This document shows positions 60,267-62,535 of a stretch of 64,000 nucleotides of DNA, in pieces. Position 1 is the stretch's first letter. Each line of letters starts with the position of its first letter. Location of the stretch: assembly GCF_001027285.1 (NCBI RefSeq), contig NZ_CP011509.1, forward strand, positions 422,501-486,500, given 5' to 3'. A program made the translations under genes and the position numbers. The notes under the pieces were generated by a model. The model was not told where the DNA came from, made no database searches, and saw only the letters and a list, made by a program, of their open reading frames with translations. The DNA comes from Archangium gephyra (GTDB taxonomy: Bacteria; Myxococcota; Myxococcia; Myxococcales; Myxococcaceae).

Positions 60267-60300
60267 CCCCTCTCCCTCTGGGAGAGGGTCAGGGTGAGGG
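60267..60300. repeat. CCCTCACCCC-type intergenic repeat, copy 11
   Basis: Reverse-oriented copy (CCCCTCTCCCTCTGGGAGAGGG then TCAGGGTGAGGG), just before the relic at 60310. Confidence 0.75.
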
Positions 60301-60309
60301 TCTTCGCGA

Positions 60310-60411
60310 GCGGGCGGAAGCCATGGCCGGACGCCGCAGGAGCAGCAGGGCAACGTTGCGCGCCACGGGGACGGTGTAGCGCCCTGCCGATGAGCGCTCG
60401 GGCCGGAGATG
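60310..60411 (-). pseudogene. Relic duplicate of part of the pheC-aroQ gene
   Basis: About 100 bp match 61388-61486 of the downstream PheC-AroQ gene with scattered substitutions; read on the minus strand it gives RPERSSAGRYTVPVARNVAL against RPERSLAGRYTVPVARNGAL in the intact gene. No start or remaining gene is present. The 320-bp gap between the M16 gene and the PheC-AroQ gene thus holds one repeat and this fragment. Confidence 0.75.
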
Positions 60412-60469
60412 GACCGCTTCGCACGAGCCCTTGAATCCACCCAGCACCGAGCTGGGCAACCCGCTCACC

Positions 60470-61792
60470 TCACCGGCCTGCCCCGGCTGTGTCATCACGG
60501 CCCGCCCCGAGCGCCACCAGCGCATCGGCGAGGCGATCGATTTCCTCTCCCTCCAGGCCGGTGGACGCAAGCTCCTCGCGAGCCTTGCGCCGCGTGGCCT
60601 CGCGCTCCAGTCCTCCGGGGACACGCGGCACGAGGGTACTGATGCGAGCACTGATGCGCGCGAGCGCGGGCCGGAGCTCCTCGTCGAGCGAGTGCACGGG
60701 TGCGTCCGCGGCGGCCGGGGGCGTGCGGAGTTGAAGCCGCTTCGCCGCGTCCATCTGTGCCTGGAAGAAGGTGGAGATGGCCTCGTCCGGAGGCGCTGGA
60801 AGGCCCAGGGCCTCGGCGGCGGCATGGACCTCCTGTCGAGCGGCCTCCAGCACCCGGGCCTCCTGCGAAAGCACCTCGATGGGTTGACCCGCGCGCTGCT
60901 TGGCCCTGGCCACCAGGGGCATCAAGGCCAGACGCTCGGCGGTGGCGGAGAGCAGTGCGTCCACGGGCGTCGCGGTGGGCCCGGTGGCGCCGGGGCCGAA
61001 GTAACGCGTGCGGAGCGCTTCGAGCGCACCACGGGCCTCCTGCCGCAAAAGCCACGTGTCCAGCTCGGCGGCCAGCGCGGCCCGGGAGGGCTGCACGTAG
61101 AGCGCCACCACGTCCCGGGTGAAGGGGCCCACGCGCTCGATGCCGGAGAGGCCCTCGGCCCAGCGAGGCCCCTCGACGGTGTTGGTGAGCGCCGCATCGG
61201 CCTGACCGGAGGCCAGCGCCTCGCGCACCGCCGCGTTGTCGGGGATGGCGAGGATGCGCGCGTTGTGGAAGTGAGCGCGGGCCACGCGCTCCAGATGACC
61301 GCCCCGGTTCACGGCCAAGCGGAAGTCGGGCCGGTCGAGCGTCCGCAGCAGCGCGAGTGGCGCCTCGGAGTCCCCCGTCGCGGGCGCGGGGGCCCAGGCC
61401 GGGCGCCGCAGGAGCAGCAGGGCACCATTGCGCGCCACCGGGACGGTGTAGCGCCCGGCCAGCGAACGCTCGGGCCGAATGGTGAGCCCACTGGCCGCCA
61501 TGTCGAAGCGCTGAGCACCGAGGTCCGCCAGCAACTCCGGCCAGCGGAAGCGCACCCATTCGAGGCGGTATCCACGCTCGGAGGCGAAGGACTCCAGGAG
61601 CGCGGCGTCGAAGCCGGACACCTGTCCGTCCCGCAGGGAGGAGAAGGGAGGATAATCCCCGCTCGTTCCGACGCGGAGGAGCCCGGTCTCCCGAGCGGGA
61701 GGCGTGACGACGGGATGCGCCGCACACGCCGCGAACAGGGCCAGCATGCAGCCCGCGAGCGCGAGGCGGGCGTGAGAGAGGGAAGGGAGCAT
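60470..61792 (-). CDS. pheC: Periplasmic cyclohexadienyl dehydratase (PheC-like) fused to a gamma-class chorismate mutase domain
   Basis: A protein of 440 residues. Signal MLPSLSHARLALAGCMLALF leads to AAC (Cys23), so exported and perhaps lipidated. Residues about 38-266 match PheC, a solute-binding-fold dehydratase: GTSGDYPPFS, WPELLADLGAQRFDMAASGL, VNRGGHLERVARAHFHNARI, and TNTVE (Glu207 at the place of the PheC catalytic Glu). Residues about 280-430 match the periplasmic *AroQ mutase (ERLALMPLVARAKQRAGQPI ... TFFQAQMDAAKRLQ). The PIED..R motif of active *AroQ is PIEVLSQ here (Val307, Gln310), so mutase activity is doubtful. Substrate of the first part could be prephenate or arogenate. Confidence 0.82.
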   Translation of the reverse strand: MLPSLSHARLALAGCMLALFAACAAHPVVTPPARETGLLRVGTSGDYPPFSSLRDGQVSGFDAALLESFASERGYRLEWVRFRWPELLADLGAQRFDMAASGLTIRPERSLAGRYTVPVARNGALLLLRRPAWAPAPATGDSEAPLALLRTLDRPDFRLAVNRGGHLERVARAHFHNARILAIPDNAAVREALASGQADAALTNTVEGPRWAEGLSGIERVGPFTRDVVALYVQPSRAALAAELDTWLLRQEARGALEALRTRYFGPGATGPTATPVDALLSATAERLALMPLVARAKQRAGQPIEVLSQEARVLEAARQEVHAAAEALGLPAPPDEAISTFFQAQMDAAKRLQLRTPPAAADAPVHSLDEELRPALARISARISTLVPRVPGGLEREATRRKAREELASTGLEGEEIDRLADALVALGAGRDDTAGAGR

Positions 61793-61968
61793 CCCCGGAC
61801 TCTGCCAACCCCTACGGGCGCGTCCAGAGCAGACGCGGGTGCGCGGCGCACCAGCGCGGGGTATGAAGAGAGTCCGTCCGACGCCCTGCTTGGTACTCGC
61901 GCAGTGGTTCATCCTGTGCGCTTCGTGCGTCACCTCTCCGGCCGACGGAACAGCGTGAAGAGACGCGG

Positions 61969-62535
61969 ATGACGAGTCGATTCTACGAGTTGACGGATGA
62001 CATGACCCAGCCGGAGCGCTGGCACTTGCGGAGCCCTGTGGATGAACACGGACAGAAAATCGATCCCTGGCAGTTCACCGAAGGCAGAAGGCTCGAGCCC
62101 CAGGGAGTCATCCGGTTTCCCGTGAGGCCCGAGGGCGTGGTGCTGGAGTTCACCCTGGACTCGTTCGCCACCCCCGTGGTCCACGGCCGCGTCGTCCAGC
62201 TCTTCGAGCGCCTCGGCATCCAGGACGTCCAATTCCTCCCCGTCGAGGTCGAGGGGCACGCTGGGCCCTGGTTCATCCTCAATGCACTGCGAATCCTCCG
62301 CTGCATCGACGACGCCCGCTGTGCGGAGGTGCGGTACTTCACGCCCCAGGATGGTCAGCCCGAGAAGGTCGGCGAGTACAAGAACGTGCGGGGAATGCGC
62401 ATCGACCCGGCGAGGACAGAAGGCGCCCACCTCTTTCGTCCGTGGGGCTGGTACTTGTCCCTCATCGTCTCCGAGGACCTCAAGCGGGCCCTGGAGCGCG
62501 AGGGCCTCACCGGCCCGGTGTTCACCGAGGTGTGA
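61969..62535 (+). CDS. Imm11-like immunity protein
   Basis: A protein of 188 residues starting MTSRFYELTDDMTQPERWHL. The sequence matches the myxobacterial Imm11 (DUF1629) family by its pattern: RFYELTDDM..PERWHL, PVVHGRVVQLFERLGIQDVQFLPVEVEG, ILRCIDD, YFTPQDGQPEKVGEYKNVRGMRIDP and FRPWGWYLSLIVSEDLKRALE..GLTGPVFTEV. Such proteins neutralise cognate polymorphic toxins in the cytoplasm. No toxin gene lies next to it, so it is an orphan immunity gene here. GC content is somewhat lower than the neighbours. Confidence 0.8.
   Translation: MTSRFYELTDDMTQPERWHLRSPVDEHGQKIDPWQFTEGRRLEPQGVIRFPVRPEGVVLEFTLDSFATPVVHGRVVQLFERLGIQDVQFLPVEVEGHAGPWFILNALRILRCIDDARCAEVRYFTPQDGQPEKVGEYKNVRGMRIDPARTEGAHLFRPWGWYLSLIVSEDLKRALEREGLTGPVFTEV

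Follow-up and report, generated by a model that had tools for sequence, protein, structure and literature searches.

A predicted exported cyclohexadienyl dehydratase-chorismate mutase fusion of Archangium gephyra belongs to a clade with altered active-site residues

The role that shikimate-pathway enzymes play beyond the cytoplasm has not been settled, and a report on nine species in 2023 called it an enigma (PMC10520331). The 64,000-nucleotide stretch of Archangium gephyra DNA analyzed here (the window) raises that question at a single minus-strand gene, which the ORF check placed between an ATG at 61792 and a stop codon at 60470-60472 (Table 1). An earlier note, made from the sequence alone, read the product as an exported PheC-like cyclohexadienyl dehydratase (CDT) fused to an AroQ chorismate mutase (CM), connected it with a proposed periplasmic phenylalanine route, and suspected from an altered motif that the mutase half may be inactive. 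Here, we ask which parts of that reading hold and what the protein might do.

The fusion itself was borne out. Pfam reported SBP_bac_3 at residues 39-266 (E 4e-22) and CM_2 at 279-354 (E 8e-7, above the cut-off), and NCBIfam reported the gamma-subclass AroQ family CM_mono2 at 274-383 (E 1e-11, under the equivalog cut-off). The top solved structure across both domains was 8cq4, the bifunctional CDT/CM of Janthinobacterium, JbCDTCM (E 3.6e-38, query 10-384). The full protein was modeled with AlphaFold from 18 aligned sequences (mean pLDDT 86.9), and the model matched AncCDT-5 over residues 34-265 (Z 25.2, rmsd 2.3, 220 aligned) and the Pseudomonas aeruginosa enzyme PaCDT (3kbr; Z 24.8, 32% identity). 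It also matched 8cq6 and 8cq4 across both domains with a large rmsd, probably because the two domains are placed differently relative to each other. AncCDT-1 and 3k4u likewise scored Z 24 against the CDT half, such that fold scores alone cannot split CDTs from binding proteins. When the CM half was modeled alone (AlphaFold pLDDT 94.7), fused and secreted CMs scored Z 12 to 19, small AroQ CMs scored 5 to 7.5, and the first unrelated row scored 3.8. The best match was the CM of AfCMCDT (8pnj/8cq3; Z 19.2, 152 to 154 aligned); the Yersinia secreted CM scored 17.3, and MtCM scored 15.5. We conclude from the sequence and the two predicted models that the PheC-type and AroQ-gamma folds are both confirmed; the second part did not turn out to have some other fold, nor the first part to be an ordinary binding protein. 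An ordinary amino-acid-binding protein fused to a CM was rejected because the top sequence matches were AncCDT-5, PaCDT, and CDTCM enzymes and because the general acid Glu173 is present.

Export also held up. The lipobox LFAAC was read by eye in the window protein and was found at the same place in 13 of 13 other intact family copies. By its sequence, the product is a predicted exported lipoprotein that joins two successive enzyme types of phenylalanine synthesis. The gene is real: the family has 14 intact members, and purifying selection acts on both halves, with a dN/dS of about 0.2 to 0.4 in each (medians, 0.31 and 0.40).

Table 1. Positions of the fusion gene and its parts in the window
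Feature	Position	Strand	Basis or remark
CDT-CM (PheC-AroQ gamma) fusion CDS	60470..61792	-	440 aa
Lipoprotein signal sequence, residues 1-23, LFAA/C23	61724..61792	-	Window read by eye
CDT (PheC-type) domain, residues 36-268	60989..61687	-	Pfam 39-266 and model matches
A124, PaCDT Lys100 position	61421..61423	-	A/P in all 78 fusions of the clade
H166-L167, PaCDT Thr132-Asn133 positions	61292..61297	-	Clade signature GG[HIVY]LE
E207, PaCDT general acid Glu173	61172..61174	-	Invariant
AroQ-gamma chorismate mutase domain, residues 275-427, all-helical	60512..60970	-	Pfam CM_2 and domain model
R287, MtCM Arg49	60932..60934	-	Invariant
K298, MtCM Lys60, catalytic Lys (K287 in JbCDTCM)	60899..60901	-	Invariant
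P304-Q310, PIEVLSQ: V307, Asp69 position; Q310, Arg72 position	60863..60883	-	
E311, directly after Arg72, at the Glu52-type position of E. coli CM	60860..60862	-	Invariant
Q354, MtCM Glu109 position; Gln in active fusion enzymes too	60731..60733	-	75/76
R374, probable MtCM Arg134	60671..60673	-	Invariant; assignment via alignment to JbCDTCM

CDT-CM fusions have been described before, and structures exist for some of them. Stocker et al. (2023) described exported CMCDT and CDTCM fusions in nine gamma- and betaproteobacteria, solved three structures, and studied seven enzymes; all had both CM and CDT activity except one, which dissolved poorly and in which no CDT activity was detected (PMC10520331). 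Outside the beta- and gammaproteobacteria, however, we found many more members, and thus the fusion is not "extremely rare." In the window's family, 14 of the 96 genomes, spread over three genera and counting that of the window, have an intact copy, and the other copies are 59 to 82% identical to the window protein; a 15th carrier, genome G004, has a remnant only. The rest of the window's phylum added one genome (G110). In an uncultivated "deltaproteobacterial" phylum (centered on genome G196), a profile search hit 71 of 377 genomes, with almost every match spanning both domains, and hit 49 of 282 in a second, overlapping draw. One genome of the survey (G551) encodes two full-length copies (L140 and L148). 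When GTDB contigs were pattern-scanned with one protein, only four loci came up, a severe undercount of the family; the profile search recovered the rest. A search of plasmids returned CDT-like or binding proteins and did not find the full-length fusion. The alignment holds 78 fusion proteins, 77 with both domains readable, and the clade, with about 77 members in Archangium-type myxobacteria and the "deltaproteobacterial" phylum, is much larger than the nine-species set.

How the clade relates to the known fusions is best seen in the CDT tree. JbCDTCM and DsCDTCM group with PaCDT (96/91), whereas a long stem (100/100) sets the clade apart. A single origin for all fusions is disfavored by the tree but not rejected (AU p = 0.058). 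The clade is separate from the nine described fusions and probably arose by an independent fusion event. The window protein resembles the betaproteobacterial CDTCMs (JbCDTCM, 8cq4; DsCDTCM, 8cq6) in the order of CDT before CM, the export signal, and both folds. It shares with them the CM changes Q76V, E106K, and E109Q, which are also found in fusion enzymes active in vitro, and retains the general acid Glu173 and the catalytic Lys60. It differs in being a lipoprotein, in occurring in other bacteria, and in a CDT half that branches apart from JbCDTCM and PaCDT. Moreover, the clade lacks the CDT disulfide, the cysteines of which are present in all known fusion members (PMC10520331), and the WLxxxW linker motif of the CDTCMs was missing from its alignment. 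The CDT domain of the window contains no Cys, and one of 80 aligned rows has Cys at each JbCDTCM disulfide column. The gammaproteobacterial CMCDTs (AfCMCDT, 8cq3) share the same two folds and T105A with the window protein, but their domain order is reversed and their CDT active site is canonical.

The most consistent active-site change lies in the dehydratase half, where the earlier note did not record it. Compared with the stand-alone periplasmic PheC of P. aeruginosa (PaCDT; 5hpq and 3kbr), the window protein has the same fold and six of nine active-site residues but lacks the disulfide, carries a fused CM, and reads K100A, T132H, and N133L. Across the clade, Lys100 is replaced by Ala or Pro and Asn133 by Leu in 78 of 78 fusions, and Thr132 is replaced by His in all but seven, which have Ile, Tyr, or Val. 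Retained in 78 of 78 are Tyr22, Trp60, Arg85, Asn128, Asn152, Thr/Ser169, and Glu173. Loss of the K/T/N set marks the clade, because four alphaproteobacterial CDTs, two Myxococcota CDTs (from genomes G189 and G112), PaCDT, and JbCDTCM all keep it. K198V was considered as a further active-site loss and dropped, as stand-alone CDTs vary there (K/N/I). We note that the CDT domain of G112 has a canonical site and lies at the C terminus of a longer protein (L053, 2947-5412, minus strand) with an N-terminal part that looks SpoIID-like, which would make it a different type of PheC fusion. The amino-acid-binding ancestor AncCDT-1 has Q/T/S at positions 100, 132, and 133 and Val in place of Glu173, and thus the CDT half of the clade looks like a derived CDT rather than a retained binding protein.

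The mutase half carries the altered motif that the earlier note had seen, which is exactly P304-I-E-V-L-S-Q310, against PIED..R in the known CDTCMs. A survey of homologs (MtCM numbering, transferred through JbCDTCM) upheld the loss of Asp69 and Arg72 but showed the change to be local, with the core catalytic residues retained. Over 78 fusions, position 69 is Asp in 29, Val in 30, Ala in 13, and Ile in 4, with Ser and Asn also found; position 72 is Arg in 54, Gln in 21, Val in 2, and Ile in 1. At minimum, the tree requires four changes at Asp69 and eight at Arg72. Gln is found at 72 in all 14 family copies, Val at 69 is confined within the family to genera g1 and g6 while g7 retains Asp, and Val, Ala, or Ile at 69 arises in the second phylum as well. 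PIEV..Q thus reads as a late, stepwise, local state of the Archangium branch in which Arg72 was lost first and Asp69 later. By contrast, R287, K298, E311, and R374 are unvarying across 76 sequences and Q354 is found in 75, and these include the AroQ-gamma active-site residues Arg49, Lys60, and Gln/Glu109. Four of the six fully invariant CM positions fall at active-site positions (hypergeometric, 6e-4, given the Arg134 and Glu52 assignments; p 0.07 when only Arg49 and Lys60 are counted).

Whether loss of Asp69 and Arg72 silences a mutase can be judged from relatives. In JbCDTCM, it was the K287A change at Lys60 that abolished activity (PMC10520331). Asp48 of the E. coli CM touches the substrate hydroxyl by its backbone, Asp is found at that position in 57% of AroQ proteins, and Val there raised the CM activity of an evolved AroQ variant (PMC12329711). 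The secreted AroQ-gamma CMs (MtCM, 2fp2; Yersinia, 2gbb) share the fold, Lys60, and Arg49 with the window protein, which differs from them in having lost Asp69 and in being fused behind a CDT domain. In the solved Yersinia structure, the motif is PIEDRIQE, and Gln occupies the Arg72 position as in the window protein. That enzyme (y2828) was reportedly active in the hands of Kim et al. in 2008. We know of no AroQ enzyme with both changes that is active. Both positions vary within the clade and the Yersinia CM has Gln at 72, and thus Asp69 and Arg72 do not define the AroQ-gamma family. Moreover, similar substitutions occur in CM-competent AroQ proteins, so an inactive mutase is not the default reading, and we rejected the double loss as proof of a dead enzyme.

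The genome argues against phenylalanine synthesis as the role. CM and PDT domains occur together in one other open frame of the same genome (C1:5297096-5297905), and thus the fusion should not be needed for phenylalanine. For the known fusions, participation in making aromatic amino acids was called extremely unlikely, and sensing or signaling was proposed instead (PMC10520331). Gene neighborhood gave no direct clue to function. In the window, the gene seems to stand on its own, with an M16 peptidase gene downstream and, upstream and divergent, a lipoprotein-like remnant and an Imm11 gene. Between the fusion and the M16 gene, at 60286-60426 on the minus strand, lies a partial second copy corresponding to residues 99-145 (62% amino acid identity with one in-frame stop; 84% identical in DNA across 102 bases), which by its sequence would be a leftover of duplication or recombination. 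On the other side, a 31-codon lipoprotein-like ORF (61863-61957, plus strand) resembles the start of a longer G004 gene (L020/L040) with an AHH-like C-terminal sequence, and the Imm11-family immunity gene follows (61969-62535, plus strand; Pfam E 4e-12); the arrangement looks like that of an immunity gene orphaned after an adjacent toxin gene was lost. The closely related G004 is the reverse: the toxin-like gene looks long, and between flanks that are 92% (M16) and 94% (hydrolase) identical, the fusion is an 87-residue remnant (L040, 6756-7016, minus strand). Within the Archangium family, the window's neighbors recur together only in G004, and an Imm11 relative is also near the gene in L051. 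In the second phylum, about 46 loci (L105-L164) share one conserved neighborhood of NAD synthetase, cold-shock protein, queuosine salvage, DAG kinase, and often aconitase, and no operon partner was found in that housekeeping context.

The analysis shows the architecture, both folds, the clade, which residues are conserved or changed, the lipobox, and the separate CM-PDT gene; catalysis, substrate, and role are inferred. Our preferred reading, to which we give a probability of about one-half, is that the window protein is a respecialized, still catalytic exported two-domain enzyme that does not serve housekeeping phenylalanine synthesis. The AroQ-gamma half would most likely still turn chorismate, or a close relative, into prephenate, and the PheC-type half might take the CM product or a different cyclohexadienyl ligand. 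The dehydratase pocket would have kept its general acid while the Lys100/Thr132/Asn133 corner was rebuilt, and in the Archangium branch the mutase would have lost Arg72 and later Asp69 with its core kept. Its likely role would be the conversion, scavenging, or perception of extracytoplasmic shikimate-pathway metabolites, such as those that lysed neighbors release. More tentatively, the clade may be a new exported enzyme pair whose A/H/L pocket sets specificity for a chorismate derivative that is not prephenate, and it could represent a third independent CDT-CM fusion that is widespread in two phyla. Several observations count against the preferred reading. With three of the nine PaCDT active-site residues gone, the protein could have lost prephenate dehydratase activity; Arg72 and Asp69 are missing together from the window's branch; and residues can be conserved for binding rather than for catalysis. 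Moreover, only a remnant is kept in G004, and thus the gene is dispensable in that species.

Those same losses would fit a noncatalytic binding or sensing lipoprotein, in which the PheC half had returned to solute binding and the CM half served as a second binding domain, the two jointly detecting chorismate-derived compounds. The PheC fold derives from binding proteins (PMC7683729), signaling was the proposal for the known fusions (PMC10520331), three CDT active-site residues are replaced clade-wide, and the CM half of the window's branch lacks Arg72 and Asp69. We consider that account doubtful, however, as Glu173, which AncCDT-1 does not have, is invariant along with Asn128 and Trp60, the ancestral Q/T/S was not regained, and CM residues Lys60, Arg49, and Gln109 are kept. 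Moreover, no ABC transporter or chemoreceptor was seen among the recurrent neighbors. Rather unlikely is that the protein is an ordinary CDT-CM enzyme that tolerates its substitutions and carries chorismate through prephenate to phenylpyruvate outside the cytoplasm like JbCDTCM. The domain order is the same, 8cq4 is the top solved match, three CM changes are shared with active fusions, and Glu173 and Lys60 are kept, but the K/T/N set retained in all six other CDTs is fixed otherwise in the clade, and such a fixed new set argues for altered specificity rather than drift. Finally, decay of both enzyme halves is very improbable: the G004 remnant lies at the same locus and a dN/dS around 0.3 to 0.4 is not especially low, but 14 of 15 family carriers have intact full-length frames and key residues are invariant over about 77 proteins in two phyla.

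The clade bears on the question of what exported shikimate-pathway enzymes do. The about 77 further members come from culturable myxobacteria and from roughly a fifth of another phylum's sampled genomes. Their fixed alternative dehydratase pocket and natural Asp69 and Arg72 variants make up a comparative set for testing substrate and role. If the pocket has a new substrate, the fusion would represent a new extracytoplasmic metabolite conversion.
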